Shown here one piece after another: positions 22,692 to 39,007 of a stretch of 64,000 bases of DNA (position 1 is its first letter; each line of letters starts with the position of its first letter). Source of the stretch: Roseovarius sp. S88 (GTDB lineage Bacteria > Pseudomonadota > Alphaproteobacteria > Rhodobacterales > Rhodobacteraceae); NCBI RefSeq assembly GCF_037023735.1, contig NZ_CP146069.1, forward strand, positions 1 to 64,000. Direction: 5' to 3'. The position numbers were made by a program, and so were the translations under genes. Under the pieces are notes generated by a model. It was given only the letters and a program-made list of their open reading frames with translations. It did no database searches and was not told the origin of the DNA.

Positions 22692-24793
22692 CGAAACACC
22701 CGCCCCCACCCAGCGCTCAGTCGTTGCGCCCGGTAGTCCCGTGTCACACCATAAAGCCGGTTACTGACGTTCAGTCGCGCGCCACCATCGCGCTGCAACG
22801 GGCGGATCACCTGACGGAAGGTTCGACGAGAGGACCGACCCGTGAACCAGGAGATGGGAATTTCCACGGTGATCCCCCGATCAAAAGATCCTTCGCCAAA
22901 CTGGGAAAATGGCACATCGGTAAGCGTGAAGAACCCGCCGATTTTGAATCCATTGTTAAACTCACGTGCGAGCGAAAACGTGGCACCCCAATCACCGGCG
23001 AGATACCGGCCAACATCCAGCTGCGTGGTAAAGCCATTGCCAAGGTCGTAATACACCGAGCCGTGGCCCGTCAGAACATCATAACCCTGAAACCCCAAAA
23101 GCATGTCAAAGTCTCGCTGCCGGGCATAGTTCAGCTCTGCGCCAAGGGCCAATCGGCTTTCGATGGGAAACCAAAGCAGCTCGGCGGACACACCGCCGAA
23201 CATGCTCTCAAGATACCCTCCCGTCACACGACCAAAGAGATTGTCGCCCGGTCGAAACATGTATTCTGCGGTCAGTTCGTTAATTTCGAAATCGGATTGC
23301 TGCGCGTAGAGCACGGCATCAGATCGCACTCGAGGCAACACCGAGTCTGATACGCGGGTGGCCTCGTCAATGTTCCCGATCAGCGGTTGACGAAAGACCC
23401 CGGAAAACGTCAGGCCAGGCGACGGTCGGTAGGACGCGTTCACCTGTACGCCCGCATCGGCGCGCACCGGTTGGTCCGGATCAAAAAACGAAAGTGCCAC
23501 ATAAGGCCCAATGGAATAGTCGAAAACGGGAAACGCTTGGGATGGCTCGCCCGTTCGATCAAGATCTGGCGCGTCGGCAAACCGCGTGCGCGACAGGCTG
23601 CGCCACGCGCCATCATGGTGCAGCGCAACCTCAACTAAATCCGACCGTTTCAGCGTGACCGTGCTATGCGGCACACCGCGCTGTTGCAACGTTATCTCGA
23701 ATATCTCAATGTCCATTGGCAGAACGCGCGCCAGCCTACGCGCGGCTCGCCCGACCGCTTGCGCCTCGACATCCCAGCGTTGATTTTCGATCCGGACCAG
23801 TGCGCGCGTGCCTCGGACGTCAAACCCCTGAAGCACCAAACCCTCTTGTTTCAAATCGTGGAATAACCGCGCCTGTGTCTTTTGCAGCGCATCAGGTTGG
23901 CCAAGATCGGCTGTTTTGAGCAAAGCCTTATGTGTGAATGGCACTGGTGCCTTGTCACGCCCACCCGGTACAGGGCGTTTGGCCGGGTCGAACATGTAAC
24001 TGAATTGCAGCCCCAAGGTCGTGCCGCCCAGTAGATAGCCTCGAAGCTGTGGCCCTTGGTCAAACTGATAGGTCAGGCCCAGATTGATCGGACTATCGAT
24101 ATTGACATTGCCCACTGAGCGCTCGCGGTCATAGGCGTCCGACGAATATTCGAACTGCAAGCTGAGCCGTTTGCCCAGTTTTATGTCAGCGCCACCAAAG
24201 AACGCCACCGGTCCCTGAAAGAACGAGTCCACCGCCAACTGCCCTGTCGTGGCCCGCGGCGCACGCGTGTCAAAACCAGAGGACAATATTCCAAGCGGAT
24301 TGGCAAACGATCCTCGCTGCGCCAAGCGCCCCCATCCAAGCCCCCCCGTTACCCGAAGGTTTGGCCCTATCGACTTGGAGGCCACGACATATTCGCTGGA
24401 AAAGATACTCGTCCCCGCGATATCGCGAAGCCCAAAGGCCAGGGCCGGACGGTTCGACCGTTCTTCCAAAAGCTGCACATGCACATCGAAACTGCGGTCA
24501 AACACATCACCGCTGTTCGGACCAGTTGGTACTAGGTTGCGCAGGATTGAATACCGAAACGTCCCGTATACGCGCGGCAGGACCTGAAACGTCAGCGTGT
24601 GCCGCTGGTTGTTTTCAAACATGCTTGTTGTGACGGCCACATGCCCATCCGGAAGAACTACAGCGGTGGGCATATCAATCAGCCCAGGGGTTCCAAACGT
24701 CGACAGCGTCTCTGCTCTCAACTGTAAGGATGACAGCGAAACGAGGATCAGAACACAGGCGATGAGCTGAGGGAAAAACTCCATAAATCTCAA
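22688..24793 (-). CDS. YjbH domain-containing outer-membrane protein
   Basis: 701 residues with a signal peptide (cleavage near LRA-ETL) and repeated amphipathic beta-strand pattern throughout, ending in an aromatic residue pattern (VFR), as expected of an outer-membrane beta-barrel. The N-terminus STFGTPGLIDMPTAVVLPDGHVAVTTSMFENNQRHTLTFQVLPRVYGTFRYS is the hallmark of YjbH/GfcD. The family functions in exopolysaccharide secretion with YjbF and the export lipoprotein. TTG 24793 has AGGA at 7 bp and is preferred; ATG 24784 is the alternative but is further from that site. Confidence 0.85.
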   Translation of the reverse strand: MRFMEFFPQLIACVLILVSLSSLQLRAETLSTFGTPGLIDMPTAVVLPDGHVAVTTSMFENNQRHTLTFQVLPRVYGTFRYSILRNLVPTGPNSGDVFDRSFDVHVQLLEERSNRPALAFGLRDIAGTSIFSSEYVVASKSIGPNLRVTGGLGWGRLAQRGSFANPLGILSSGFDTRAPRATTGQLAVDSFFQGPVAFFGGADIKLGKRLSLQFEYSSDAYDRERSVGNVNIDSPINLGLTYQFDQGPQLRGYLLGGTTLGLQFSYMFDPAKRPVPGGRDKAPVPFTHKALLKTADLGQPDALQKTQARLFHDLKQEGLVLQGFDVRGTRALVRIENQRWDVEAQAVGRAARRLARVLPMDIEIFEITLQQRGVPHSTVTLKRSDLVEVALHHDGAWRSLSRTRFADAPDLDRTGEPSQAFPVFDYSIGPYVALSFFDPDQPVRADAGVQVNASYRPSPGLTFSGVFRQPLIGNIDEATRVSDSVLPRVRSDAVLYAQQSDFEINELTAEYMFRPGDNLFGRVTGGYLESMFGGVSAELLWFPIESRLALGAELNYARQRDFDMLLGFQGYDVLTGHGSVYYDLGNGFTTQLDVGRYLAGDWGATFSLAREFNNGFKIGGFFTLTDVPFSQFGEGSFDRGITVEIPISWFTGRSSRRTFRQVIRPLQRDGGARLNVSNRLYGVTRDYRAQRLSAGWGRVFR

Positions 24794-24908: not shown

Positions 24909-24924
24909 TTAATAAATGCTTAAC
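24909..24924. promoter_or_regulatory. CtrA-type box overlapping a start codon
   Basis: TTAATAAATGCTTAAC is a perfect TTAA-N7-TTAAC match to the CtrA consensus. It covers the ATG (24916) of the phosphatase gene and lies about 116 bp upstream of yjbH. A regulator bound here would more naturally repress the phosphatase or act on divergent yjbH. Confidence 0.5.
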
Positions 24925-25641
24925 GCGTTGCGGATCTTTCTTAACAAACCTGATATCGAGCGCGCGCCGCCTGCGCCTGACACACCTTTTGTTGCCATTG
25001 GCGACATCCATGGTCGCGCTGACCTTCTGACCCGTCTTCTGCCACGCCTGCCTGATCTTCCGATCATCTGCGTTGGCGACTATGTTGACCGCGGCGATCA
25101 CAGCGCGGACGTGCTGCGCCTGCTTCTGGATCGCCCCGAGATCATCTGTCTTTCGGGCAATCACGAGGACATGTTGCTGCGCTTCATCGACACCCCCGAA
25201 CGAGAAGGGGGGCGCTGGCTTCTGCACGGCGGGATGCAAACCGTGGCCAGCTTTGGCTTGGGTGGCATCTCGCCATCGGCGCGGGGTGAAGAGTTGGTCA
25301 AACTGCGCGACGCACTGGTCGAAGCGATGGGCCAGGAGATGCTGACCTGGCTGAGGGATCTGCCGACACTCTGGCAATCGGGCAACGTAGCTGTGCTGCA
25401 TGCAGGGGCCGATCCATCAAAACCTTTGAACACGCAAAAGCCACAGACCCTGCAATGGGGACACGCGGGCTTTCTCAAAACGCCGCGAACAGATGGCATG
25501 TGGGTGGTGCATGGTCACACAGTGGTAGAGGCACCCAATGCCGAAGACGGCCGCATCGCCATAGACACCGGCGCCTACGCGACTGGCCGTCTGACGGCGG
25601 CGATCGTTGAGCCCGGGCAAGTCCGTTTCGAAACCGCCTGA
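24916..25641 (+). CDS. PPP-family metallophosphatase
   Basis: 241 residues with all core motifs of the PPP serine/threonine phosphatase family: GDIHGR (residues 31-36), GDYVDRGDHS, GNHED, and a C-terminal HGH. These bind two metal ions. The protein is close to the small bacterial PrpA/ApaH-like group, and could act on phosphoproteins or on dinucleotide polyphosphates. Its position between yjbH and the priming sugar transferase suggests it might reverse tyrosine or serine phosphorylation linked to capsule control, but that is inference. The nearest GGAG is 15 bp upstream of the ATG. Confidence 0.85.
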   Translation: MLNALRIFLNKPDIERAPPAPDTPFVAIGDIHGRADLLTRLLPRLPDLPIICVGDYVDRGDHSADVLRLLLDRPEIICLSGNHEDMLLRFIDTPEREGGRWLLHGGMQTVASFGLGGISPSARGEELVKLRDALVEAMGQEMLTWLRDLPTLWQSGNVAVLHAGADPSKPLNTQKPQTLQWGHAGFLKTPRTDGMWVVHGHTVVEAPNAEDGRIAIDTGAYATGRLTAAIVEPGQVRFETA

Positions 25642-25668: not shown

Positions 25669-25709
25669 AGCGGTGTTGTTTACCGCTTGTTAAGCCTTGC
25701 GATGCTTAA
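25669..25709. promoter_or_regulatory. Two inverted repeats upstream of the sugar transferase
   Basis: AGCGGT-N7-ACCGCT (25669-25687) is followed by TTAAGC-N8-GCTTAA (25690-25709). The first might be a weak terminator for the phosphatase gene, though there is no T-tract. The second looks like an operator within the promoter region of the sugar transferase gene. No binding protein is known from sequence. Confidence 0.35.
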
Positions 25710-25756
25710 AGTTTGGTTATCGACGTGTGAGTGGGGACATACGACGGAGCCCGCCA

Positions 25757-26428
25757 ATGGCCATGATGGACCACCCCCACACGCGCCCTTTTGCACACCT
25801 CACATCAACAGTCTCATTTGTTTACTCGATCTTGGGCAAACGTCTTCTGGACCTTGCCATCGCACTGTTGCTTCTGCCGATCCTCGTTCCGCTGATTTTC
25901 CTGCTGTGGCTCCTTGTTCGCTTGCAGGGAGGCAGCGGGTTTTACAGCCATACGCGAGTTGGTCGAAACGGGGCGGAATTCTCGTGCTGGAAAATTCGCA
26001 CGATGGTGCCCAATGCCGAGCGGCTATTGGCCGAACTGCTCGATGCCGATCCCAAGGCCGCCGACGAGTGGCGAAGAACACAAAAACTCCATCGCGATCC
26101 GCGCATCACCGCGCTGGGTCAGTTTCTGCGCCGCACCAGCCTCGATGAGCTGCCACAAATTTGGAACGTGTTGCGCGGTGACATGTCCTTAGTTGGACCG
26201 CGACCGGTGACCAAACCAGAGCTGGACCGATATGGATCGGATGCGATCGTCTATCTCAATCTGCGCCCCGGCATCACCGGTTTGTGGCAAATCATGGGTC
26301 GCAGCGATGGCTGCTACGATGAACGTCTTCGTCTGGACATGGCATATGCCCGAGCCATTTCGCCGGTCCAGGATTTGTCGCTCATCTTACGCACCGGGGC
26401 GGTCATCTTTCGCCCTACCGGACGCTGA
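25757..26428 (+). CDS. Priming sugar transferase (ExoY/WcaJ type)
   Basis: 223 residues of the bacterial sugar transferase family. One N-terminal hydrophobic helix (LLDLAIALLLLPILVPLIFLLWLLV) is followed by the catalytic domain: FYSHTRVGRNGAEFSCWKIRTMV, FLRRTSLDELPQIWNVLRGDMSLVGPRPV and LRPGITGLWQIMGRSD. It transfers a hexose-1-phosphate to undecaprenyl phosphate at the inner membrane, starting the repeat unit. The internal ATG 25757 is preferred; the longer frame (25697) adds 20 residues covering the operator-like repeats. It ends 14 bp inside the oppositely oriented glycosyltransferase gene. Confidence 0.9.
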   Translation: MAMMDHPHTRPFAHLTSTVSFVYSILGKRLLDLAIALLLLPILVPLIFLLWLLVRLQGGSGFYSHTRVGRNGAEFSCWKIRTMVPNAERLLAELLDADPKAADEWRRTQKLHRDPRITALGQFLRRTSLDELPQIWNVLRGDMSLVGPRPVTKPELDRYGSDAIVYLNLRPGITGLWQIMGRSDGCYDERLRLDMAYARAISPVQDLSLILRTGAVIFRPTGR

Positions 26429-27569
26429 TCAGACTTTGCAGCCGTGGCTTGTGCGCTGGCTTTGCCCCGGTGGAAAACTGAGGTTTCAACACTTCGACCA
26501 ATGCCTCAGCACTGGCACGCCAGGAAAACCGCGCAGCGCGCAGCTTACCTTTTGCAATCCGGGACCTTCTTTCCTCCTCACTCATTGAGGCAAAGCGCTT
26601 GAGCGCCAGTGTCATCCCAAGCTGGTCCCTGGGATCAAACCACATCGGCGCATCCCCCAGCACTTCGGGCATTGCCGTCGCATTTGAGCTCAGCACCGGC
26701 ACGCCGAGTTGCATCGCTTCCAGCGGCGGAATACCAAACCCCTCGTTGAGGGACGGAAACACAAAACCAGCCGCCCCTTTGTAGAGACCACAAAGGTCAG
26801 ACTCTTGAACCCGGCCCAAAACACGCAAGCTATCGTACCTGCCCAGTTTGGCCTTGTTCAAGGCACGCGGCGCATCCCCAACAATTGCCAATGGCGGCAT
26901 ATCGCAACCTGTTTCGCGATGCGCAGATATAAGTCTGATAAGGTTCTTGTTGGGACTTTGATTGCCCACCGACAAAAAGTATCCGCGCCGCGCCAACCCA
27001 AACGTATCTAGCGCATTTGGGTTGTCTTGCGTGCGCAGCACGTGTTCTGCAGAATTGGGAATAACTGCGAACTGTGCCGGATCAATCCTCAGCCAAGGGC
27101 TCAGAGAGTGCGCTGAATGCTGGCTCACTGTGATCAGGCTCTTGGCGCGCTGCGCCAGCCGGGGTCGCAAAAACCTGTGCCACCTGCGATAGCCTGGCGA
27201 AAACGCCTCGGGCATTTCAAAAACATGGGCGTCATGAAACGCAACCACATGCGCCTCATGAGCAAGTGGTCCGCAGTTACCTAAGCTTAGCAGAACGTCA
27301 TCCTTGCTGATCTGATAAAGCCGCGATTGTTCCCAAACATGGCCTTGCGATGCACCTGTCGAAAATATCTCAATTCGGCGGTAGCACGGCAAGCGCTCAT
27401 GCACAGCCCCCGATACAAACGGGGTTAGCACGACCACCTGACCAAAGCGCGCCTTCACCGAAGGCTGCCGCACCAGAAGGTCATCCAGCGCCTGCACAAG
27501 TTCATGCGCATAGCGCTGAACACCCGACAAAGGCTGCGTCAGAAAACGCCCATTGATGAAAAGTGTCAT
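26415..27569 (-). CDS. Glycosyltransferase family 4
   Basis: 384 residues with a GT-B fold. The C-terminal donor-binding site shows LNEGFGIPPLEAMQLGVPVLSSNATAMPEVLGDAPMWFDP, the E-x7-E signature of GT4, and the N-terminal acceptor domain has INGRFLTQPLSGVQRYAHELV, common in mannosyl- and similar transferases. It adds one sugar to the lipid-linked repeat unit; donor and linkage are not readable. Its ATG overlaps the stop of the upstream glycosyltransferase (ATGA), so they are one operon running away from the sulfotransferase cluster. Confidence 0.88.
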   Translation of the reverse strand: MTLFINGRFLTQPLSGVQRYAHELVQALDDLLVRQPSVKARFGQVVVLTPFVSGAVHERLPCYRRIEIFSTGASQGHVWEQSRLYQISKDDVLLSLGNCGPLAHEAHVVAFHDAHVFEMPEAFSPGYRRWHRFLRPRLAQRAKSLITVSQHSAHSLSPWLRIDPAQFAVIPNSAEHVLRTQDNPNALDTFGLARRGYFLSVGNQSPNKNLIRLISAHRETGCDMPPLAIVGDAPRALNKAKLGRYDSLRVLGRVQESDLCGLYKGAAGFVFPSLNEGFGIPPLEAMQLGVPVLSSNATAMPEVLGDAPMWFDPRDQLGMTLALKRFASMSEEERRSRIAKGKLRAARFSWRASAEALVEVLKPQFSTGAKPAHKPRLQSLISVR

Positions 27570-28738
27570 GCGACCTCGGCGTGCAGGCTAAGCGCTTGCT
27601 GACCAAGGGCCGCGCGATAACACCGCTCTGTGCCAGACCCCAGTCGCGCCAGGTCCCAATCAGACACATCGGTGCGACGCGCTCCTCGTGCCAGACGCGT
27701 GCGCCAAGCTGTGTCTTCCAAAACATCAACAAGCCGATGCGCCACCGCACCCATGTCGTCTGCCGGAAGGATCAAGCCATTGTGGTCATGTGCCAGGATT
27801 TCATCCAAACCCGGCAAAGCTTGCGCCAGGACAGGACACCCTGCAGCAATGGACTGAACCACGACACGCGGCAACCCTTCGCGCACCGATGTCAGAACGG
27901 AAACATCCGCCAGCGCAAAGAGTGCCTCGGCATCGGCACGATGTCCGCAAAACACCACGTTTTTCTCAAGTCCAAGACGCTGAACCTCGCCGCGTACCCG
28001 GTTTTCCTCGGGGCCTTGACCGGCCAGCAAAAGACGCATCTGCGGCAACCGGTCTGACACCCGCGCAAAGGCGCGAAGAAAAGGCACATGTCGCTTGCGC
28101 GGCTCAAACGCCGCCATCATGAGCGCCACAGGCGGACGTCGACCCGCAGCATCGGCACCGGACAAAACACGCCAATCGGATGGCAGTTGGGCACGACGAA
28201 ATCGATCAAGCGCCATGCCCGAGCGCACACAATACATCTGATCCGGATGCGCCAATCCGGCCTCAAGATAAGCGTCTGAAACGGCCTGAGAGACACCGAC
28301 AAATGCATCTGTCCGACGGGCCGCAAGACGCTCCGCTGCCAGGTAGATCGCGCGCCGCAACGGGCTGACACCCTCAAACGGTAGAATATGCACCCCGTGC
28401 ACGATCAGCGCACCCGGCACGGCATCTGCAGCCAATCTCCCGACCAACCCCGCCTTGCTCTGATGCGTGTGAATGACATTTGGCAACAGGGTTTTGTAGA
28501 TATCACGCAACCAGCGGATGGCACGAAAATCCCGTTTGGAATCGATCGGATGCACCAGATCAGGCACCACGATTCGAGCTAACCTTTCCGGAAGATTGAT
28601 GTCCCAGTAGGGATCCGTTTCGGAGCCATGAATAAGCGTCACCTCATGCCCGGCGTCCAACTGCCAGCGAATTGTTTCAACGGTGTTTTCTTCGGATCCT
28701 GCACGCAGCAGACGGGTGATCAGATGCACGATATGCAT
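27566..28738 (-). CDS. Glycosyltransferase family 4
   Basis: 390 residues, GT-B fold. N-terminal MHIVHLITRLLRAGSEENTVETIRWQLDAGHEVTLIHG; donor domain VALMMAAFEPRKRHVPFLRAFARV, LLLAGQGPEENRVRGEVQRLGLEKNVVFCGHRADAEALFALADVSVLTSVREGLPRVVVQSIAAGCPVLA. In the E-x7-E motif the second Glu is replaced by Gln, which is uncommon in GT4 enzymes. It is the first gene of the two-gene glycosyltransferase operon. A CtrA-type box lies 24-39 bp upstream of its start. Confidence 0.87.
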   Translation of the reverse strand: MHIVHLITRLLRAGSEENTVETIRWQLDAGHEVTLIHGSETDPYWDINLPERLARIVVPDLVHPIDSKRDFRAIRWLRDIYKTLLPNVIHTHQSKAGLVGRLAADAVPGALIVHGVHILPFEGVSPLRRAIYLAAERLAARRTDAFVGVSQAVSDAYLEAGLAHPDQMYCVRSGMALDRFRRAQLPSDWRVLSGADAAGRRPPVALMMAAFEPRKRHVPFLRAFARVSDRLPQMRLLLAGQGPEENRVRGEVQRLGLEKNVVFCGHRADAEALFALADVSVLTSVREGLPRVVVQSIAAGCPVLAQALPGLDEILAHDHNGLILPADDMGAVAHRLVDVLEDTAWRTRLARGARRTDVSDWDLARLGSGTERCYRAALGQQALSLHAEVA

Positions 28739-28867: not shown

Positions 28868-29566
28868 ATGGCCGGTTTCGTCTATATCCATGTGCCCAAA
28901 TGTGGCGGCTCTTCCTTCGGTGCCGCGTTGCGCCTGCGCTATCTGACGTCGCAGGCCACCATCCGCCTCAATCAGGGAGACCCAAACCTCATCGGAGACG
29001 CGCGTATCCTGAGCGACTACGCGGCCCGCAGACGGGAATTGCACGCCCACGTGTCCAAAGGCGTGCGCCTGATCTCAGGCCATGTGCAATACGACCCGTA
29101 CCTGCATCTCAGCGCCGCGCGAAACTATGGTTTTCTCACCTTGCTGCGTGACCCGTTGGAGCGGTTTGTATCCCACTACCGCTACTTGCAGCGCAAACAT
29201 CCCGATGCGCAGCGACCGGATACACTGGAGGCCTTCATCGAAACACGCGCCGCCTCCAGACTGTCATCGCAATACTTGTTCTACTTCGCCGGCCAAAGCC
29301 AGGCGCAAACCAGCAACACCGCACCCCTGATCACCCGCGCCATTCGCGCGCTGGCCTGCTTTGATCTTGTCGGTGATCTTTCTGATCCTCAAGCCTGTCG
29401 CGCGGCACTACGTAACATCACAGGCGGACCCCTCCCACTTTGGCATCGCAACCGTGCACCAAATCGTGCATCAGTCTCACGCGCTCTGCGAACACGCCTT
29501 GAACACCTCTGCGCCGCAGATCTGGAAATCTTCGAAAGCGTCCGCCACCACAGGGCCGCCGCATGA
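28868..29566 (+). CDS. Sulfotransferase family 2-like protein
   Basis: 232 residues. The PAPS 5'-phosphosulfate loop is HVPKCGGSS (residues 8-16), and the 3'-phosphate site is LLRDPLERFVSHYRY, both as in carbohydrate sulfotransferases of the family 2 type. It would put sulfate on a hydroxyl of the repeat unit or its lipid-linked precursor, making an anionic sulfated polysaccharide. GGAG lies upstream of the ATG. First gene of a five-gene run (to 34371) in which each start overlaps the previous stop by 4 bp. Confidence 0.87.
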   Translation: MAGFVYIHVPKCGGSSFGAALRLRYLTSQATIRLNQGDPNLIGDARILSDYAARRRELHAHVSKGVRLISGHVQYDPYLHLSAARNYGFLTLLRDPLERFVSHYRYLQRKHPDAQRPDTLEAFIETRAASRLSSQYLFYFAGQSQAQTSNTAPLITRAIRALACFDLVGDLSDPQACRAALRNITGGPLPLWHRNRAPNRASVSRALRTRLEHLCAADLEIFESVRHHRAAA

Positions 29567-30846
29567 CGCGCCGCACATTGTCGCCCGTGTCGCTGATGCT
29601 GTTGTGCTGGGGGATCACAGGCACATTTTCCATTTGGGCGCTGATGTCGCTCGAACACCTGCCTTTAGTTCAAACCTTCATTCTACGGGAAAACCTGGAC
29701 CTCTCGGCTATCACATTCGCCGGAGTGCTTTGGATTCTCTTCAGCCTCTCGATCTACGTGCTCGCGGATTGGATGGCGCGATTGTCCTTGCCCAAAGCCC
29801 AGACATTTCGCCCGAATCTGAATGTCGAAACTGCCGCCAAACTGACCTTCACGGTCAATGCCTGCTTTGCGACGGTGACCCTAATCTGGATTGCGGCCAC
29901 AGCACATAGCGTCGGCGGGCTTACCCAATTGGCCGCCGCTGTCTATTTGGATAGCCTCAGCACACGCGACATGCTTTTGGAAAAAAAGCTGTTTACGGGC
30001 ATGCGTTTGTTTTACGCTGCGCTGCCTGCAACCGGCTGTCTCGCGGCTGCTTTTCTTGCGCATGGACACCTGTCCTTGCGTGCGCGTCGCATGTGCAAGG
30101 TCACACTTGCACTGAACCTGATCTTGCTGTTCTTGTTGCCCATCGTGATGAGCCAGCGGCTCTTGCTCTTGCAGTTCCTGCTCTCGTCCTACATCGCGAC
30201 CTGTCTGGTCCGGGGAAAGATCTTTGGTCTACGGTGGCTTGGCCTGGGAGTGTGTTTGTTCCTTGGACTTTGGTTTGCCAGAGAGATCATTACCAATCCA
30301 AGCCTGGATCAGTCCGCTGCGGACATCGCCTGGCAGAAACTTGCGTTCTACATCGTCAATGACATGTGGAACAGTCTTGCGCCGCTAAGCCGCCCGATTC
30401 CACATACGCATGGTGCTCTGACATTCGAAGGGCTCACCTTCCTGACCTTCACAGATGGCCTGTTTCATGGTGCCGACCCAAGCCAAATACCCGAGTTGAA
30501 CGCGGTACTAGGTGGCGGGGAATTCCCGTTTTTCACCACCGCCTATGTTGATTTTGGTCCCATCCTTGGCATGGCCGTGATCGCAGGTTTTGCCATCCTA
30601 TTTCGCCTGGTTTTTTACCGTGCTTGTCAATCGCTCGGCTGGGCAGCAATCTATGCTCAGATCGGCGCAGCTCTGCTGTTCTCCAGCCATTCCGTTTACG
30701 TCACGCACCAGAATTTCCTGTTTTCAATTGCAGTCATCGCGGTGATCTGCCGCCTGGCACGCCGGACACCACAGCGGTCGCGACACAGGGCACCACAGCG
30801 CGCCGTCCCGGTCTTTCGCAGCCGACGCAAGGCGCACATCGCATGA
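29563..30846 (+). CDS. Putative polysaccharide polymerase (Wzy-like) membrane protein
   Basis: 427 residues, about ten to twelve hydrophobic helices and one larger extracytoplasmic loop (residues about 250-310, NDMWNSLAPLSRPIPHTHGALTFEGLTFLTFTDGLFHG), the layout of O-antigen/EPS polymerases. Primary sequence is poorly conserved in this group, so the call rests on topology, the C-terminal-half loop and its place between sulfotransferase, acyltransferase and flippase genes. The C-terminus ends in an Arg-rich cytoplasmic tail. Starts by ATGA overlap. Confidence 0.65.
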   Translation: MTRRTLSPVSLMLLCWGITGTFSIWALMSLEHLPLVQTFILRENLDLSAITFAGVLWILFSLSIYVLADWMARLSLPKAQTFRPNLNVETAAKLTFTVNACFATVTLIWIAATAHSVGGLTQLAAAVYLDSLSTRDMLLEKKLFTGMRLFYAALPATGCLAAAFLAHGHLSLRARRMCKVTLALNLILLFLLPIVMSQRLLLLQFLLSSYIATCLVRGKIFGLRWLGLGVCLFLGLWFAREIITNPSLDQSAADIAWQKLAFYIVNDMWNSLAPLSRPIPHTHGALTFEGLTFLTFTDGLFHGADPSQIPELNAVLGGGEFPFFTTAYVDFGPILGMAVIAGFAILFRLVFYRACQSLGWAAIYAQIGAALLFSSHSVYVTHQNFLFSIAVIAVICRLARRTPQRSRHRAPQRAVPVFRSRRKAHIA

Positions 30847-31871
30847 CCGGGACGTCTAGCACATCAAGGCTGGCTGGCCTGCAATCGCTCCGCGCGTTGG
30901 CCGCGGGGATGGTTCTGGTTGGTCATGTCCTAGCAGAGGCAGAGCACTATTTCGGCCTGTCGCTACCCGGAGATGCAATGCCCTGGACCCGAGGTGTGGA
31001 CCTTTTCTTTGTGATCTCCGGGTTCGTCATCGCCCTGTCGGCAGACAGGTTTCGCACCCAACCGCTGGCCTTTTTCAAACGCCGCCTCCTACGCGTGGTT
31101 CCGCTTTATTATGTGTTCACCACGATCATGGTCATGGTCCTGCTGATCTTGCCAAATGCGGCCAAGGACACCTCGCTTGATCTGGGACAAATCCTGTCAT
31201 CCTATGGGTTCGTGCCCTATGCCAGAGAGGACGGACGCATCGCGCCAGTTCTCTCCTTGGGCTGGACGCTCAACTACGAGATTTTCTTCTACGCGATTTT
31301 TTCCTTTTGTCTTGCATTAAGTCGGCCACGGTTTGCGCTGACTGCGATTTTGTCGGCCTTGGTCATGGCCGGGCTGACCTTTCCCGCGACGGCAACCACA
31401 TTTGTGTTTTGGACCAATCCCCTCATTCTCGAATTTTTGTTCGGAGTGGGGTTGGCAAAGCTCTATCAATCCGGATGGCACAAACCACATGGCGGACTTG
31501 CTGTGTCAGGTTTGGTCACTGGTCTAGTGATGCTGTTGCTGCTCGATGCGACGTCGCTGCCGCGTGTCATGGCCGCCGGACTTCCTGCCGCATTGATCGT
31601 GGCCAGTGCAACGATACTCTGTCCCAACCGCACGACACCGGGTCAGCTGCTGGGTGACGCCTCTTACGCGCTTTACCTGTCACATCGATTTGCCCTGAGG
31701 GCCGCGACGCTTTTGCTCTTGCCGCTCCTGCCACAATCGCATTTGGGCGCATGGATCTACGTTGCAATTGTCACCGGCTTGGCCGTGACTCTGGGCGTAT
31801 TGACCCATCTACTGTTAGAGAAGCCGCTGATGCGCGCGGTCGCGACCTCACCAAAGGTGGTCCCGGCATGA
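30843..31871 (+). CDS. Acyltransferase family 3 (OafA-like)
   Basis: 342 residues, about ten membrane helices. The family motifs are present: LQSLRALAAGMVLVGHVLAEAE (catalytic His in the first helix), RGVDLFFVISGFVIALSADRF, FFKRRLLRVVPLYYVF, LGWTLNYEIFFYAIFSF, and DASYALYLSH near the C-terminus. It probably O-acetylates or otherwise acylates a sugar of the polysaccharide. ATG 30843 overlaps the preceding stop (ATGA); the longer frame from 30624 lies inside the polymerase gene and is not used. Confidence 0.88.
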   Translation: MTGTSSTSRLAGLQSLRALAAGMVLVGHVLAEAEHYFGLSLPGDAMPWTRGVDLFFVISGFVIALSADRFRTQPLAFFKRRLLRVVPLYYVFTTIMVMVLLILPNAAKDTSLDLGQILSSYGFVPYAREDGRIAPVLSLGWTLNYEIFFYAIFSFCLALSRPRFALTAILSALVMAGLTFPATATTFVFWTNPLILEFLFGVGLAKLYQSGWHKPHGGLAVSGLVTGLVMLLLLDATSLPRVMAAGLPAALIVASATILCPNRTTPGQLLGDASYALYLSHRFALRAATLLLLPLLPQSHLGAWIYVAIVTGLAVTLGVLTHLLLEKPLMRAVATSPKVVPA

Positions 31872-33199
31872 GCACACAGTTTTGGTCTTTCGGCTTGCAA
31901 TGGTCTCGGGTCGGCATCAATGCCGCGCTGTTTCTCATTGCCACCCGGTTTTTAAGCCTGACCGAAATTGGCCTCTTTGCCACGGCCTTTGCACCGATCC
32001 GTCTAAGCCAGGGTTTGCATCGCGCCGGAATTGCAGAAACCGTCATCATTCTGGGCAAGCACCCGTGGCGTCTAAATGGGCTTTTTGTTGTATCCACTGC
32101 GCTGGGTCTGTTCTTGGCGGTTGTTTTTGCGTCGATCGGGTACCTCACAGCAACGCCCACCTTGATCGCACTTGCCATCATTCCTCTGCTCAATGGGCTT
32201 GGCGCCGTGTCCGAAGGTCTGCTCCGGCGTAATCTGCGTCTGCGCGCCCTGGCCTTGCGCACCGCCATTATCCAGAGCGTCGCCGCTCTCTCGGCGCTTG
32301 GCCTTCTGGCCGCTGGCTTTGGCATTTGGGCTTTGATTGGTTTTGCTGTTCTCAACGCATTCGGCACTTGCCTTTTGAACTGTATGCTGGCGCGGTGGGT
32401 GCCAACGCGTCTTCCGCGTTTCGCAGACGTGACCCCTCTTTTGCCCAAAGTCGCACAGATTGCAGCGCGCGATATTGTCGGAGCCGCGCAAATGCCGCTG
32501 GCTCTGCTGGCCGTTGGACTAACACTTGGCCTGCCAGCCGCAGGCGCATTTCAGATCGCCACCCGCATCTACAACCTTATCGACGCGCTTACGTTATCGC
32601 CGCTCCGGTTCATCGCTCTGCCACAACTGGCACAGGATACGGTAGGCTCAAGATTGCGATTTGTGGAACATCTCTCGCGTGCCGCATGGCTGGCGTCGTG
32701 GGTTTGGGCCATTGTCCTGCTCTTTGCGCCCGATCTTCTTGGTCTGCTTCTAACGCATGAACACGCCAGTGCCACCGCGCCTATCCTGCGTGCCTTTGCC
32801 GGTCTGGGGCTTTTCAGTGCACTGACCATGCCACTCAATCAAGCGCTGACCGTCCGTTTGCAAACCAGCCTGGTCCTGCAACGCGCAATCGTGATGCTCT
32901 GCCTTGGCGCATTGCTTTTGCTGCCTGCCCTGACAGTGTCACCAACCGCCTGCGCCTTGGCTCTTTCAGCCGCCGCATTCATTGTAAATCTGTGGTATAT
33001 CCCGACGGCCCTTCCACGGCTTTACTTGAACTTCAAAGATCTGTCGGTCGCCGGCTCGCCCCTCTTGGCCGCTGGACTAGCGATTTGCCTCATCCTCATT
33101 ACACCCAACTTGCCCATGATCGCCCAGTTGGCCTGCGGCACGCTGATCTACCTGTGTCTCGTGGCGCTTTTGCCCAAACCTAATATGAGGCCAACGTGA
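31868..33199 (+). CDS. Oligosaccharide flippase (Wzx/MATE-like)
   Basis: 443 residues with about twelve to fourteen hydrophobic helices in the polysaccharide-specific flippase pattern. The N-terminal half has LQWSRVGINAALFLIATRFLSLTEIGLFATAFAPIRLSQGLHRAGI and LIALAIIPLLNGLGAVSEGLLRRNLRLRALALRTAIIQSVAALSALGLLAAGFGIWALI, typical of Wzx-like lipopolysaccharide biosynthesis proteins. It should move the lipid-linked repeat unit across the inner membrane for polymerisation. ATG 31868 overlaps the acyltransferase stop (ATGA). Confidence 0.82.
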   Translation: MSTQFWSFGLQWSRVGINAALFLIATRFLSLTEIGLFATAFAPIRLSQGLHRAGIAETVIILGKHPWRLNGLFVVSTALGLFLAVVFASIGYLTATPTLIALAIIPLLNGLGAVSEGLLRRNLRLRALALRTAIIQSVAALSALGLLAAGFGIWALIGFAVLNAFGTCLLNCMLARWVPTRLPRFADVTPLLPKVAQIAARDIVGAAQMPLALLAVGLTLGLPAAGAFQIATRIYNLIDALTLSPLRFIALPQLAQDTVGSRLRFVEHLSRAAWLASWVWAIVLLFAPDLLGLLLTHEHASATAPILRAFAGLGLFSALTMPLNQALTVRLQTSLVLQRAIVMLCLGALLLLPALTVSPTACALALSAAAFIVNLWYIPTALPRLYLNFKDLSVAGSPLLAAGLAICLILITPNLPMIAQLACGTLIYLCLVALLPKPNMRPT

Positions 33200-34371
33200 A
33201 ACGTGCCGTTCTACTGACTGGTCATTTCCCAGACCAGAAACGACGGCCAAGCCTTTTGTGGGTGTCGCATCACCTGCAAAAGAGCGGCTGGCATGTCACT
33301 CATGTCACTGTCGGCTATTCCTGGCTGTCTCGCCTGCTAGGTGACGCGCGCCTAACCGCCCTGGATCACCGCCCAAAGAGCGGAACAGCACACCCAAAAC
33401 CGACCCTGACAACCCTTTTCGGATATGCCCCCATCCATCCTGTCAACCTGCGCCACCCAAGTCTAACCAGATTGGCGCAAACCATGTGGCCTGTGTTCAC
33501 GGCCTACTGGCAACGCCGCATACGTGGCCCGCTGCACCAGGCTGATTTGGTGATATGTGAAAGCGGGCCACCAGTTTTACTGGCACCAACTCTGGCCCGC
33601 CACGCGCCCGACGCCCAGCGCATCTACCGTGTGAACGACGACATTCGCCTGCTCAATGCGCCTGCGGGGCTGGTCGCGGCCGAACAAGCTAACCTGCGGC
33701 ACTTCACTCGCATCAGCACCGCCAGCCCAATTCTGGCGCGACGGTTTGAAGCGCACCAGTCTGTCACGCTTGATCCAATGGGCATCCCACATGCGTTGAT
33801 AGCTCACGAACGCCCCAACCCTTACCGCGCGCAACCCGGCCGCAAGATCGCCGTCTGTGCTGGCACCACACAGCTTGACATGCAGGCGCTAGAGCGCATC
33901 GCTGCACTGCGCCCAACCTGGGACCTGCACATTCTGGGGCGCCTCAAATCCAAACCCCTGCGACGTGCCAATATCATCTGGCACGGCGAACAAAGCTTTG
34001 AGGCAACCTTGGCCCACATTGCCCATGCCGATATCGGGCTTGCTCCTTATCTGGACAAACCAGGGATCGAGTATCAGGTGAGCAACTCGAACCGTATTCT
34101 GCTCTACAGGCATTATGGCCTGCCCATTCTTGGACCTGATCGGCTCTGCGATCCGGACGTACCATCACTTCTCGGGTACAACGCTCCAAATGCAATGGAC
34201 CTGTGCGAAAAAGCTCCGCACAGGCCCAACATGATCCCTGACTGGTCCGAACTTGCCCGGCGTTTGTCTCAGAACGGTGTCACCGACCCCCCAAGCGATG
34301 TTTCAATAGATCCTGCCACCACGTCAAAGTCGCGTGTAAAGATTGTGCCGGCATTGGCCTCTAGCGCGTAG
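33196..34371 (+). CDS. Glycosyltransferase, GumK-like
   Basis: 391 residues with a GT-B-like arrangement: SLLWVSHHLQKSGWHVTHVTVGYSWLSRL at the N-terminus, DLVICESGPPVLLAPTLARHAPDAQRIYRVNDDIRLLNAP in the middle and ADIGLAPYLDKPGIEYQVSNSNRILLYRHYGLPILGPD near the C-terminus. This pattern is like the xanthan glucuronosyltransferase GumK, so transfer of a uronic acid is possible. The start is GTG overlapping the flippase stop (GTGA). The last 34 codons overlap the 3' end of the convergent spike-fibre gene by 103 bp, and the protein tail (after about residue 357) looks unlike a glycosyltransferase. Confidence 0.72.
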   Translation: MKRAVLLTGHFPDQKRRPSLLWVSHHLQKSGWHVTHVTVGYSWLSRLLGDARLTALDHRPKSGTAHPKPTLTTLFGYAPIHPVNLRHPSLTRLAQTMWPVFTAYWQRRIRGPLHQADLVICESGPPVLLAPTLARHAPDAQRIYRVNDDIRLLNAPAGLVAAEQANLRHFTRISTASPILARRFEAHQSVTLDPMGIPHALIAHERPNPYRAQPGRKIAVCAGTTQLDMQALERIAALRPTWDLHILGRLKSKPLRRANIIWHGEQSFEATLAHIAHADIGLAPYLDKPGIEYQVSNSNRILLYRHYGLPILGPDRLCDPDVPSLLGYNAPNAMDLCEKAPHRPNMIPDWSELARRLSQNGVTDPPSDVSIDPATTSKSRVKIVPALASSA

Positions 34372-35612
34372 TTCTCCGTCGAGCCGGCCGCATCGCCAAT
34401 ACAGTCCTGAAGCCACATGTAAGATGGGTTTGAACATTTGAAGGCGACAGAGGTTCCATCGATGTCGCGCGCAACTGCTCGAACACCCGCCAACCAACTT
34501 TCTGTCGACTGGATGCAATGGATTTCGGTGCCGTTGCGCGACAATCCATACGCACCGTTCAACACCAGCGCGCGTACAGAATCGTGCGTGGTGAACGCGT
34601 TACACGACGTCGCGCCATCGATCCCATTTTGCCAAGCGGTGCAGTTCTGCAAGAGCACGTGCATCCCGGCTGTGCCATCTTCGTGAAAGGACCAGCCATC
34701 CTTCGCACCGTGGCTGGCATCACATCCAAAGAATGCGACAAGCCCGTTTGTCCGGCGCACCCGCGCGGCGTCCAGAGGGGAGGACGGGTTGGACGGCGCG
34801 GAATAGCGAAATGAACAATTCACACCAACGATGTTACGCGTGGCCACAGCATCAAAATGCAAGGCACCGGTGATGCCACCTTCGGTATGAATATTCTCAA
34901 GATAAAAATCCCGATCGTGGGTCATAAACCGCGCGCCATGAAAAGACCGCATCAGCGCAATATCGTCAGGTCCCGGAGCACCGCCCACATTCACATGAAC
35001 CGTACCGCCATCCTGTGTCCAGCTGTTCAGCGTCGCCGTACATGTGGCCACGTCGACCACATTGGAAAGCTCGGAATAGTGCCCCTCTGCTGTCAAGACA
35101 TCGGTTCGAAACGCGCGTTTCACCGAACTCACCCCTGCCGAATACGTCCCACCCGCGTCGATCCAGCCCGGCTGAAATGGTCCTGTCCGATAATGCACCG
35201 GCCCGTGCCACCCGATCAAGGCGACAGGCTGGTCCGGCTCATCATTGCCGTTGCGGGTGAACGCGCTTTCCTCATATTTGCCTGGCTTGACCAGCACCCG
35301 AAACGGAGCAGCCGTGGCGTTGCCAGAGACAAACGCCGCGTGGATCGTGCGCTTGGCATTCGTGAAATCCCCATCCTCTACGCCGAGACCTGAGTTGCTG
35401 TCATCCCCGGTTGCACTGTCGACGTGAATGGCAGCGCCTGTCCAAATGCCCGCGTCTACCAACGCGCGCGGTTGAAGATCGGTGCCGTAGTTTTTACCCG
35501 TCCTATGCACAGCAAACCCAAACCGGGCCTGATCCCAATCAAAGCCTGACGGGAAATCAACGTCCTGGCGCACGCTGACCTGCGGCTTGAGACCTGTTGA
35601 CAGGCCAATCAT
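34269..35612 (-). CDS. ghsB: GTA head spike fibre protein GhsB-like (beta-helix)
   Basis: 447 residues with the alternating hydrophobic/Asn/Gly pattern of a right-handed parallel beta-helix (for example CTATLNSWTQDGGTVHVNVGG, FYLENIHTEGGITGALHFDAV, MHVLLQNCTAWQNGIDGATSCNAF, LNGAYGLSRNGTEIHCIQS). The N-terminus carries the FDWDQARFGFAVHRTGKNYGTDLQPRALVDAGIWTGAAIHVDSATGDDSNSG block. Together with the spike-base gene just upstream, this matches the ghsA-ghsB pair (Rcc01079-Rcc01080) that forms head spikes of the Rhodobacter capsulatus gene transfer agent and binds capsular polysaccharide. ATG 35612 overlaps the ghsA stop by one base. A phage tailspike or polysaccharide lyase origin is the alternative for the fold alone. 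Confidence 0.72.
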   Translation of the reverse strand: MIGLSTGLKPQVSVRQDVDFPSGFDWDQARFGFAVHRTGKNYGTDLQPRALVDAGIWTGAAIHVDSATGDDSNSGLGVEDGDFTNAKRTIHAAFVSGNATAAPFRVLVKPGKYEESAFTRNGNDEPDQPVALIGWHGPVHYRTGPFQPGWIDAGGTYSAGVSSVKRAFRTDVLTAEGHYSELSNVVDVATCTATLNSWTQDGGTVHVNVGGAPGPDDIALMRSFHGARFMTHDRDFYLENIHTEGGITGALHFDAVATRNIVGVNCSFRYSAPSNPSSPLDAARVRRTNGLVAFFGCDASHGAKDGWSFHEDGTAGMHVLLQNCTAWQNGIDGATSCNAFTTHDSVRALVLNGAYGLSRNGTEIHCIQSTESWLAGVRAVARDIDGTSVAFKCSNPSYMWLQDCIGDAAGSTENYALEANAGTIFTRDFDVVAGSIETSLGGSVTPF

Positions 35613-35881
35613 CAAACAAGCCCTTTCAGCCCGGTTGCTGTGGTCCCTGTGCTCAGGACGCGCACCACCCGGAACGGATAGATCACCCCCGGTGTCAGCC
35701 CCGGAAGGGTCAGTGTATCACCGGTCTTAAGCACCACGTTCAGATCACCGGCTCCAGCAACCATGATTGCTCGGGGTATCGTCGCGAGGTCGTTTGCATC
35801 CTCTGGCGTGATGTCAAATCCACCACAAATCGGCCCAGTCAACCCGGTGTCAAAGCTGGCAAAATTATCTGTAATTGGCAT
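35612..35881 (-). CDS. ghsA: GTA head spike base protein GhsA-like (RCAP_Rcc01079 family)
   Basis: 89 residues. Blocks seen: FDITPEDANDLATIPRAIMVAGAGDLNVVLKTGDTLTLPGLTPGVIYPFRVVRVLSTGTTATGLKGLV. The ITP-D-A-DL, AGDL-V, FRV-RVL-TGTTAT pattern is what I recall for the spike base protein family named after R. capsulatus Rcc01079. I chose ATG 35881 because GGAG lies 6 bp upstream and the protein then begins at the family's usual point; the frame is open back to 36001. It would anchor GhsB at capsid vertices. No capsid, portal or tail genes of a GTA are in the window, as in R. capsulatus where these genes are also away from the main cluster. Confidence 0.78.
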   Translation of the reverse strand: MPITDNFASFDTGLTGPICGGFDITPEDANDLATIPRAIMVAGAGDLNVVLKTGDTLTLPGLTPGVIYPFRVVRVLSTGTTATGLKGLV

Positions 35882-35960
35882 TGCGGTCTCCATGTTGAGG
35901 TCGCCGCGAAGCCTGTGCTTTGTGGGTTTCTGAATGCTTAAGGCGTCGTGCGCTGCGGGC

Positions 35961-36449: not shown

Positions 36450-36598
36450 GACAACACCCACTCAAACCGTTGCGCCAAAAGTTGTTCGGCGCATTCCACC
36501 ACGCCTCAACAAACCAAGCTTTCCCTAAGAAAAGATTGAGCGGCGCCAAGTGTTCACTGACAGATTTAGGTAAGTTTTACTTCACCAAAGGGTGTCAC

Positions 36599-36868
36599 TC
36601 ATTTCGTGCCGGTTGAACTGGTGGACGTTGTTGACGGGCTTGACCCGCCTGCACCCAACACGCCTCCAAGGGCCGCGGCGACACCGGCAAGTGGCGCCAC
36701 CACAGGCGCAAAATTGGTAATCGGTTGATCTGCTTCTGGAAGGTCAAGGCATTCAGGCAACGCAGCGTCGGACAACGAGGAGCAATCCACATCCCGCACT
36801 CCGTCTTCCGCAATGGCAGGACGGGCAAACCACATCAAAAAGAAAACACATGCAAAACGTGTTATCAT
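36599..36868 (-). CDS. Small secreted protein of unknown function
   Basis: 89 residues: signal peptide (RFACVFFLMWFARPAIA, cleavage before EDG), a short acidic segment with two Cys (DCSSLSDAALPECLDLPEADQP) that may form a disulfide, a hydrophobic Gly/Ala-rich helix (APVVAPLAGVAAALGGVLGAGG) and a Ser/Thr-rich tail. I do not recognise a family. The helix could insert in a membrane or act in oligomerisation. The gene sits next to the promoter of the Wzc-like kinase on the opposite strand. Confidence 0.55.
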   Translation of the reverse strand: MITRFACVFFLMWFARPAIAEDGVRDVDCSSLSDAALPECLDLPEADQPITNFAPVVAPLAGVAAALGGVLGAGGSSPSTTSTSSTGTK

Positions 36869-36947
36869 GATGTATTATTCTTTCTAAAGTTGTTAAGTTG
36901 GTTTGAAAATGCGGAGCCCTGTCATCCAAATTCTGTTGTCGGAAAGG

Positions 36948-36962
36948 TTAAGAAATGGTTAC
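36948..36962. promoter_or_regulatory. Near-match CtrA box upstream of wzc-like gene
   Basis: TTAAGAAATGGTTAC is TTAA-N7-TTAC, one base from the core consensus. It lies about 50-65 bp upstream of the proposed TTG start of the Wzc-like gene in an AT-rich intergenic stretch. Confidence 0.25.
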
Positions 36963-37012
36963 GCGTCAAGCATGATCCAACATCCTGCAACCTTCAGGAT
37001 CGGACCCCAATC

Positions 37013-39007
37013 TTGACCGTATCTGACCCCCGACAAAGGCGTGCCTTTTATGCTAACAGGCAAGACGCGCCTGACCCGCATCGCGAGGAAATCAATTTCG
37101 GTGCCATCCTGTCCGCTTTGTGGCGTGGCAAATGGATGATCGTGGTCACACTTGTTGGTGTCACGGCCTTGGGCGGCTACTACGCCCGAGGTGTGGCAAC
37201 CCCGATCTACCGTGCCACGTCGGTCATCATCCTCGAGCCCAATCAGGAACAAATCGTCGACCTGCAAAGCGTCGCTGCGGGCTTGTCCGGAGACAGTTCT
37301 GAAATCAATTCCGAACTCGAAGTCCTGCGCAGCCGCGGGCTTATGGGCAAAGTTGCTGCGCGTCTCGACCTCATCCAGGATCCGGAATTCAACCTCACAC
37401 TCGCACCGCCCACCTTGATCAGCCGGATAAAATCGCTTGTCTTCGCATCTGCAGTTGCCAAGCAAAACGGGTTAGACCCCCGCCGGATGGAAGACCGGGT
37501 CATTTCCGCCCTTCTGTCGCAAATCTCGATCTCCAACGTGCGCTCCAGCCTCGTCTTCCGCATCACCGCGTCATCCACTGACCCCGACAAATCCGCCGCC
37601 ATCGCTGACGCGGTGGCCGAAGCGTATGTCGAGGACCAGGTGGCCGTGAAACGAGAGGCCACGCACCAAGCCACAGCATGGCTCGGCACACAGGTCCAAG
37701 AGCTCGAACTCACCCTGCAAGAGGCCGAAAGCAAAGTCGCCAATTTCAATGCAAACACCGAGCTGATTTCAACCAATGCGCTGCGTCTTCTGGAACGTCA
37801 GGCCAAGGAGCTGCGAGAGCGCATCGTCACGGCCACCGGCATGCAAAACACCCTCACCGCCGAGCTGTCAGATACAAAGCCTGGTCAGCCGAAAAAGCAA
37901 CAGGACTTGACGCGGATTGACCAACAGCTTAGTTCTCTGCGCGCCTCCGAACAAGACTTGATGCGGCAGATTTCCACGCAAAACCAGGATCTTATCACAC
38001 TTCAACAACTCACTCGAGAGGCCGAAGCCACGCGTGTGCTCTACGAATACTTCCTTGCCCGGTTCAACGAAACAGCCGCTCAACAAGGCATTCAACAAGC
38101 AGACAGTCGCATTCTGTCGCGTGCCGTCATCCCGCTGCGCCCGTCAGAGCCCCGCACGTTGCGCATCCTGACGTTGTCAGCTCTGGCAGGTCTTGCTCTT
38201 GGTGCTCTGATCGTTCTGATGCGAGAACGTTTGCGCAACAGCTTCCAAACCTTGCAGGACATTGAAGATACGACCGGATATCCCGTGCTGGGTCAAATCC
38301 CTGCTCTGCCGACCCGGGTACGCCCGAAACTTCTGGCCAATCTGGTCAACAACCCAACCTCTGCCGCCGCAGAGTCGTTTCGCAATCTGCGCACCTCTCT
38401 GCTGTTGTCCGACCCCGATCACCCGCCACAAGTTATCGTCTCGACATCGGCCCTGCCTGGCGAGGGCAAGACCACCAATGCTCTGGCACTGGCCCACTCA
38501 CTGACTGGCCTGAACCGTCGCGTATTGCTGCTTGGGGCTGATATCCGCGCCAGCACCCTGCCAGAGTATTTTCGTGAACTTCCTGAAACCGGGTTAGTAT
38601 CCGTGCTGCTCAATGAAGCGCGCCTTCAGGATGCGATCTACCACCCGCCCGAGCTTGGGATCGACATCCTCTCTGGTGCGCCTGCCACACGAAACGCCGC
38701 CGACCTCTTTGCGTCAGAGGCCTTTGCTACCCTCATCCAGGACCTGCGCCAGCACTATGATCACATCGTAATCGACACGCCACCTGCACTTGCGGTTCCC
38801 GATGCGCGCCTGATTGCGCGCTCCGCTGATGCCATCCTTTTTACTGTGCTCTGGAATAAAACCGGCAAAACCCAGGTGACAGAGTCCCTCCGCCTCTTTC
38901 ACAGCGCAGGCCAACATATCACAGGTCTTATTTTTGCGCGCGTTTCTCCCAGCGCATTACGGCCATACGGCTATGACGCCTATGGCAAATACGCAGATGC
39001 TGTGTAG
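37013..39007 (+). CDS. Wzc-like polysaccharide chain-length determinant / tyrosine autokinase
   Basis: 664 residues from TTG 37013. Wzz-type N-terminal domain: EINFGAILSALWRGKWMIVVTLVGVTALGGYYAR (first membrane helix), TSVIILEPNQEQIVDLQSVAAGLSGDSSEINSELEVLRSRGL, then a coiled-coil region (about residues 215-350) and a second helix RILTLSALAGLALGALIVLM. The cytoplasmic BY-kinase domain has Walker A SALPGEGKTTNA, Walker A' VLLLGADIRA and Walker B HIVIDTPPAL. A Tyr-rich tail (PYGYDAYGKYADAV) is the expected autophosphorylation cluster. It controls polymer length and export with the OPX lipoprotein. There is no ATG near the conserved N-terminus, so the start is uncertain. Confidence 0.85.
   Translation: MTVSDPRQRRAFYANRQDAPDPHREEINFGAILSALWRGKWMIVVTLVGVTALGGYYARGVATPIYRATSVIILEPNQEQIVDLQSVAAGLSGDSSEINSELEVLRSRGLMGKVAARLDLIQDPEFNLTLAPPTLISRIKSLVFASAVAKQNGLDPRRMEDRVISALLSQISISNVRSSLVFRITASSTDPDKSAAIADAVAEAYVEDQVAVKREATHQATAWLGTQVQELELTLQEAESKVANFNANTELISTNALRLLERQAKELRERIVTATGMQNTLTAELSDTKPGQPKKQQDLTRIDQQLSSLRASEQDLMRQISTQNQDLITLQQLTREAEATRVLYEYFLARFNETAAQQGIQQADSRILSRAVIPLRPSEPRTLRILTLSALAGLALGALIVLMRERLRNSFQTLQDIEDTTGYPVLGQIPALPTRVRPKLLANLVNNPTSAAAESFRNLRTSLLLSDPDHPPQVIVSTSALPGEGKTTNALALAHSLTGLNRRVLLLGADIRASTLPEYFRELPETGLVSVLLNEARLQDAIYHPPELGIDILSGAPATRNAADLFASEAFATLIQDLRQHYDHIVIDTPPALAVPDARLIARSADAILFTVLWNKTGKTQVTESLRLFHSAGQHITGLIFARVSPSALRPYGYDAYGKYADAV

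Follow-up and report, generated by a model that had tools for sequence, protein, structure and literature searches.

The stretch of DNA analyzed here (the window) comprises 64,000 nucleotides, positions 1 to 64,000 of contig NZ_CP146069.1 of Roseovarius sp. S88. On its minus strand lie two genes resembling ghsA and ghsB, which encode the base and the fibre of the head spike of RcGTA, the gene transfer agent (GTA) of Rhodobacter capsulatus. The ghsA-like gene (35612..35881) encodes a spike base of 89 amino acids. As a preliminary description of the window had proposed, profile searches assigned its product to the RcGTA spike-base family and not to another: it matched NF048002 (spike_base, the RCAP_Rcc01079 family) with 99.9 bits against a cut-off of 28, as well as PHROG 12296 and PDB 6tb9 (Rcc01079, E 3e-12), and it is the only match in the whole genome. 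The ghsB-like gene, encoding the fibre, lies directly downstream. Its ATG at 35612 has one base in common with the ghsA stop codon (TGATG), and we therefore take it to span 34269..35612, giving a protein of 447 amino acids.

GhsB matched PHROG 16653 (“hydrolase”, 3.5e-32) and PHROG 32409 (“tail fiber”, 2e-19). Pfam gave no family for either GhsA or GhsB, and a comparison of GhsB with PDB sequences gave no match at E <= 1. An AlphaFold2 model predicts a right-handed beta-helix with a confidence score (pLDDT) of 93.6, and a test of fold membership placed it there; residues 57-447 of the model were matched structurally by right-handed beta-helices, including glycan-active enzymes and tailspikes. 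Residues 1-11, which contain the N-terminal peptide MIGLSTGL and which we propose as an anchor, have a pLDDT under 50.

The pair lies inside a capsule locus that spans from Wza (20664) to a Wzc-like kinase (39007), on a 3.54-Mb contig also carrying rpoB. The locus begins on the minus strand with genes for a Wza-like polysaccharide exporter (20664..22022; PF02563, 48.2 bits), a YjbF/GfcB-like lipoprotein (22056..22709; PF11102, 67.9 bits) and YjbH (22688..24793; PF06082, 670.8 bits). These are followed on the plus strand by a metallophosphoesterase (24916..25641; PF00149, 50.2 bits) and an initiating sugar transferase (25697..26428; PF02397, 191.8 bits), and on the minus strand by two family 4 glycosyltransferases (GT4; 26415..27569 and 27566..28738; PF00534, 68.8 and 105 bits). 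The remaining genes, all on the plus strand, encode a sulfotransferase (28868..29566; PF03567, 33.5 bits, cut-off 22), a Wzy-like repeat-unit polymerase (29563..30846; TIGR04370, 50.3 bits, cut-off 40), an acyltransferase (30624..31871; PF01757, 81.3 bits), a Wzx-like flippase (31751..33199; PF13440, 61.4 bits), a GumK-like glycosyltransferase (33196..34371; PF22059, 147.9 bits) and the Wzc-like tyrosine autokinase and chain-length determinant (36725..39007; PF02706, PF13614, PF13807). Flippase, polymerase, chain-length kinase and exporter thus occur together, as in a Wzx/Wzy-dependent capsule locus. The pair was said to sit between the last glycosyltransferase gene and the kinase gene, and so it does (33196-34371 and 36725-39007). 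ghsB and the GumK-like gene, which lie on opposite strands, overlap tail-to-tail: a segment of 103 bp (34269..34371) forms the end of both.

A further open reading frame (ORF) of 166 amino acids (35961-36461, minus strand) lies between ghsA and the kinase gene. It begins with a stretch that looks signal-like by eye, gave no match in Pfam or NCBIfam, and is the best match of nine ORFs among the loci searched. It may be part of the block. The metallophosphoesterase gene (24916..25641) has counterparts in three plasmid-borne copies of the block, which have annotated neighbours of the same kind.

The preliminary description presupposed a GTA cluster elsewhere in the genome (3.64 Mb). Such a cluster, of the RcGTA type, lies near 1.675 Mb on the same contig, about 1.64 Mb from ghsA-ghsB. 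It contains a portal, an HK97 capsid, RcGTA_tape (333.6 bits, cut-off 220) and GTA_megatron (1834.5 bits, cut-off 800), with NF058675 and NF048004 both over their cut-offs; the genome holds one portal match and one GTA_TIM match. We also sampled 395 genomes of the family (numbered G below; individual loci are numbered L). GhsA was found in 142 of them and GTA_TIM in 349, the latter in 137 of the 142 genomes with GhsA versus 212 of the 253 without it (Fisher p 7e-5). Among 16 other genomes with the window's fibre type, 13 had a megatron match (10 over the cut-off).

Upstream of ghsA we identified a promoter-like motif of 31 bases, which was derived de novo from the regions upstream of ghsA at loci other than the window. 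Its consensus, GCaGCGcaCGgTGggtTAAcgctttgTTAAC, contains CG-N2-CG followed by a CtrA-like TTAA-N7-TTAA; the end of the motif fits TTAA-N7-TTAA, which we take to be the CtrA site. The best match of the 64-kb window lies before ghsA (35926..35956, minus strand, 22.3 bits). Within the 20-kb GTA region, the first match lies before the portal gene (16.5 bits) and the third before the first ORF of that region, at 5314 (13.9 bits). The matrix alone is not specific, as six 20-kb control regions peak at 11.1 to 22.3 bits. In a two-fold cross-validation, the motif reached 10 bits in 51/89 and 48/89 held-out upstream regions, as against 0.5-1.3% of control windows (n = 1704) and 1.1-1.8% of regions upstream of other genes (n = 652). 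A hand-written pattern had two matches in the 3.64-Mb genome, one upstream of ghsA and the other upstream of the portal gene of the GTA, and none when reversed; as it was composed after seeing both sites, this count speaks for rarity and not for independent discovery. At L003, the ghsA-type motif before the portal gene (7029-7059) lies inside the cluster, in addition to that before the ORF at 5314, and may mark a second GTA promoter. In R. capsulatus, according to PMC9638019, the spike, tail-fibre and lysis genes all have promoters with putative CtrA half-sites, and two of the three promoters also have putative GafA sites.

These data bear on the idea that the fibre serves the capsule: GhsB, comparable to RbmB or AlgG, would be a lyase or hydrolase that belongs to the biosynthesis locus and modifies the capsule, and GhsA would be its pentameric holder. 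We consider this improbable: no export signal is evident by eye at the N-terminus of GhsB, GhsA shares its family with a structurally solved component of the RcGTA head spike, the ghsA motif recurs before the GTA portal gene, and phage tailspikes have the same fold as that modelled for GhsB.

We then compared 178 ghsA loci, namely the window, 37 named loci and 140 from the family genomes. In the 151 loci flanked by more than 4 kb on each side, we counted polysaccharide genes within 10 kb of ghsA. At least one was present in 114/151 loci and at least three in 92/151; by a strict core list these numbers were 105/151 and 71/151, and for the window and family-sample loci alone 92/120 and 72/120. 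Seven controls (six hand-picked distant positions and the GTA region) had none, apart from a single hexapeptide-transferase match, a class not counted, at L216; the capsule profiles derive from gene clusters of the ghsA loci themselves, and this comparison was not blind. At L229, L231 and L178, ghsA lies near exosortase (XrtA/XrtD) polysaccharide systems, so several kinds of capsule host the spike pair. At L066 (Rhodobacter capsulatus DSM 1710), the only GhsA found (9932-10273) is a divergent copy, unlike that of SB1003 as published; no clear fibre ORF downstream and no capsule genes nearby were found, and the locus failed as a positive control.

An ORF of at least 150 amino acids starts near the ghsA stop in 113 of the 178 loci, some of these ORFs being perhaps spurious. 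At 30% identity they form 54 families, 39 of them singletons. A loose hydrophobic-glycine motif near the N-terminus occurred in 58/113 fibre ORFs and 27/54 family representatives versus 54/791 other genes and 5/54 internal stretches, although the expression misses some relatives of the window's fibre (L034). Its presence in half of such diverse fibres agrees with exchangeable fibres that dock into a constant socket. Pairs of loci within the window's fibre family had 3.5 neighbours in common versus 0.11 for pairs with dissimilar fibres, and similar-fibre pairs outside that family had 0.69. In an overall permutation test the observed value was 529, whereas the null values averaged 50.8 and did not exceed 192; the window's family was the main driver of this result.

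The window's fibre type was present in 18 of the 178 loci. Of the 15 such loci with at least 9.7 kb downstream, 13 carry the same flippase, acyltransferase, polymerase, sulfotransferase and GT4 genes; at L039, L040 and L072 the GumK-like gene is visible and then the contig ends. The window's polymerase occurred in none of the 160 other loci (135 with at least 9.7 kb downstream), and a sulfotransferase of the window's family was seen in two loci with other fibres, L195 and L208. Overlap between the fibre and GumK-like genes recurs in 12/16 loci of this type (6 to 102 bases by the script's measure; L048 and L108 are outside this count). L042, L043 and L045 gave no GumK-like gene, and there 21-72 bases separate the end of the fibre gene from the flippase gene; at L044 a 130-base gap separates the fibre and GumK-like genes.

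Genome-wide, the polymerase was found in 9/395 genomes at E <= 0.001. It lies about 6 kb from ghsA in the window's genome, G061, G128 and G315 (the last with one internal stop). In G346 it is in two pieces and in G126 a partial match of 33% identity at a contig end, and in both genomes the fibre lies on a different contig. G062 and G192 carry it at 37-38% identity without the window's fibre, and the match in G137 is marginal. With marginal G137 left out, the polymerase was present in 6/6 genomes found to carry the window's fibre (in G126 only as the partial match) versus 2/389 others at E < 1e-20, the others not each searched for the fibre (Fisher p 5.5e-12).

Could shared ancestry alone explain this association? 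RpoB identity to the window's genome was 87-90% for most carriers (98% for L035, 67% for L037) and 88-90% for most non-carriers (70% for L049), and the same-genus genome G245 (90%) carries neither ghsA nor the polymerase. This comparison measures distance to the window's genome only and is no species tree; L034 was outside it, and L039, L040, L044, L048 and L060 gave no match. As RpoB identity fails to separate most carriers from non-carriers, we rejected phylogeny as the sole cause. For 14 loci (L201 was excluded, as were the near-duplicates L043 and L221), fibre identity between pairs of loci correlated with that of the flippase (0.92) and that of the polymerase (0.84). In partial Mantel tests given GhsA (n = 14), the values were 0.78 and 0.54, reached in 0/2000 permutations each.

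The block is also carried by plasmids. A GhsA relative is encoded by 23 plasmid records, and 10 match the window's fibre. In all 10, parA-parB stand directly before the pair or its remnants, and the GhsA ORF was found in 9/10, Sulfitobacter OXR-159 being the one without it. Fibre, flippase, acyltransferase, polymerase and sulfotransferase are all full-length in Sulfitobacter W002 and W027, Marinovum algicola pMaD9 and Roseivivax THAF197b (in W027 the second GT4 is a fragment, and pMaD9 is without the GumK-like gene). Fibre and block are both damaged or lost in S. dubius, two S. faviae strains and Sulfitobacter OXR-159. A damaged fibre beside an intact block was found in none of the 10 plasmids. 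Five Thioclava plasmids carry the polymerase at 37-38% identity with no match to the window's fibre, and plasmids of Rhodovulum P5, Loktanella, Limimaricola and Palleronia carry ghsA with quite different polysaccharide genes and fibres.

Three further plasmid features were observed. In four Sulfitobacter plasmid copies of the block, an AbrB/VapC toxin-antitoxin pair lies between the sulfotransferase and glycosyltransferase genes (L222 20192-20850; L223 11357-12015; L228 11668-12326; L235 19220-19878); in the window, only 128 bases separate the glycosyltransferase and sulfotransferase ORFs. On a plasmid of Thioclava sp. FTW29 (L234, 8977-11534), ghsA is followed by a gene annotated as a sialate O-acetylesterase, beside pqq genes; this is another kind of fibre, as on the Limimaricola plasmid. 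A GhsA relative that lacks a gene annotation lies on Tritonibacter mobilis plasmid p5 (L230, 8628-8882); with parAB and genes for phage tail proteins and lysozyme next to it, this looks like a phage-plasmid.

The plasmid data can be read in another way, in which ghsAB hitch-hike passively in a variable island or plasmid segment, linked to capsule genes with no lock-and-key relation. This would be compatible with a GTA role of the spike. Correlated distances arise from linkage alone, capsule genes are untracked by other fibre families, and parAB, ghsAB and capsule genes adjoin on plasmids. Against it, fibre and polymerase co-occur on different contigs in G346 and in G126 (there at a contig end), which broken assemblies could explain. 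The pattern of decay on the 10 plasmids also speaks against it: both parts are damaged or lost in four and the block alone is damaged in two, with no case of a damaged fibre and an intact block. We regard passive linkage as rather unlikely, and as the strongest of the rival explanations.

We also considered that the pair belongs to prophages or phage-plasmids and stands in capsule loci as something that a phage left behind. GhsA relatives do occur in phages RcapNL, RcapMu, DSS3P8 and V10 and on the Tritonibacter plasmid with phage tail genes, and at least two GTA-like tail genes lie beside ghsA in 2/178 loci. However, GhsA is 61-82% identical to that of the window in the 12 named loci of the window's type versus 31-38% in phages, and conservation across genera extends to the fibre, the motif and the capsule block. 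The neighbours examined, which did not include every ORF of the window, showed no phage structural gene; on this ground the prophage reading was rejected, and we hold a phage origin of the arrangement to be very improbable.

We therefore favour, as a probable interpretation, that the spike pair of an RcGTA-type GTA sits inside a capsule block, with spike and receptor inherited and exchanged together. Our model suggests that ghsA-ghsB encode the head spike of this genome's GTA, whose main particle cluster would remain elsewhere in the genome. GhsA pentamers would be incorporated into the particle, capping the capsid vertices, and the short N-terminal peptide of GhsB would plug into them, as the RcGTA structure leads us to expect. 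The predicted beta-helix of GhsB would bind, and perhaps cut, the capsule made by the surrounding genes, which is probably sulfated and acylated. The promoter motif common to the GTA cluster would ensure that the spike is made in GTA-producing cells, presumably under the control of CtrA/GafA. Since the pair lies within the capsule block and the fibre gene shares DNA with the last glycosyltransferase gene, spike and receptor would travel together, also on plasmids, and particle and target probably stay matched.

Several observations weigh against this interpretation. The peptide MIGLSTGL has fewer Leu/Gly repeats than the RcGTA anchor peptide, and one of the six control regions equals the window's promoter site at 22.3 bits. 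No recognised capsule gene was found at 37/151 ghsA loci, and L048 and L108 have the window's fibre type without the block beside it. On the plasmids, Sulfitobacter D7 has a full-length fibre and a polymerase in two pieces, and Roseivivax THAF40 (pTHAF40_a) a full-length fibre with polymerase, sulfotransferase and both GT4 genes missing. Fibre families of 15, 12 and 9 loci have means of only 0.25, 0.24 and 0.72 neighbours in common per pair, and L054 and L174, with fibres 68% identical, have none. The expectation that fibre type co-varies with capsule genes thus held for the window's type (polymerase, flippase, sulfotransferase, acyltransferase) and failed for the other large families, and we rejected covariation as a rule for all fibres; either 30% identity is too loose for one specificity, or the rule is not general.

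The match between spike and GTA genes is also incomplete. Five genomes with GhsA lack a GTA_TIM match; G105 has a match to the GTA capsid of the window's genome, and G128, G209, G218 and G346 have none. No megatron match was found in G128, G346 (which has split genes) and the genome of L037, though the window's fibre type is present. The occurrence of ghsA without GTA matches needs an explanation: the GTA may have been lost recently or its genes may have diverged, the genomes may be those of receivers, or the pair may have a second role. G128, G209, G218 and G346 are candidate receivers without particles of their own. At L166 (G128:C1:4302100-4322099), the whole capsule block and the fibre stand in a genome with no match to the GTA capsid or GTA_TIM.

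By the sequence tests, then, this is a genuine GTA head spike lying within a capsule locus. Such a co-location is already in print for one species: as far as PMC10218006 describes them, the capsular polysaccharide (CPS) genes of R. capsulatus adjoin and are co-regulated with the RcGTA spike genes, which agrees with the preliminary description, and PMC7296036 describes attachment of the head spike to the capsule and its anchor peptide. According to these reports and PMC9638019, RcGTA GhsA/GhsB (Rcc01079/Rcc01080) and the CPS genes rcc01081-01086 share with the window the same base family, a base-fibre pair outside the main GTA cluster, capsule-gene adjacency and CtrA-like promoter elements. In contrast to RcGTA, the window's fibre has 447 amino acids and a modelled beta-helix (Rcc01080 has 325 amino acids), the locus has other capsule genes, including the sulfotransferase, and a tail-to-tail gene overlap, and its gene set recurs beside parAB on plasmids. 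Phage tailspike depolymerases (Sf6, CBA120 TSP2, Klebsiella K2 spikes) have a beta-helix fold like that predicted for GhsB, which differs in that a short peptide would place it on the head. Roseobacter extrachromosomal replicons likewise carry rep-parA-parB beside exopolysaccharide genes; those described here carry in addition a GTA particle part and its probable receptor. Among the papers that our literature searches listed, no title or abstract opening described a spike-capsule block common to several genera or the presence of ghsAB on plasmids, which is weak evidence of novelty. As far as we have seen, it had not been described before that the window's fibre covaries with one capsule block across genera, that its gene overlaps a glycosyltransferase gene, that plasmids carry the pair, or that a promoter motif is conserved.

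A more far-reaching idea, which we offer as possible but doubtful, is that the block is a mobile tag-and-reader cassette. One linked block, on chromosome or plasmid, would encode both the capsule (tag) and the GTA head fibre (reader). A strain that acquires it would at once enter a new DNA-exchange group, and its costly GTA donation would reach only cells that bear this block too; block-bearing genomes in which no GTA cluster was found, such as G128, would be non-paying receivers. As one explanation for the persistence of suicidal GTA production, PMC10883770 puts forward that specific polysaccharide receptors keep GTA-donated DNA among kin, receptor-bearing non-producers being cheaters. If the interpretation holds, a linked, portable spike-plus-receptor block would provide a genetic mechanism for such kin-restricted donation. 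It would also offer concrete strains for study, since the block occurs in several genera and on both chromosome and plasmid while one genome of the window's genus is without it, and it would help to predict from sequence which strains can exchange DNA.

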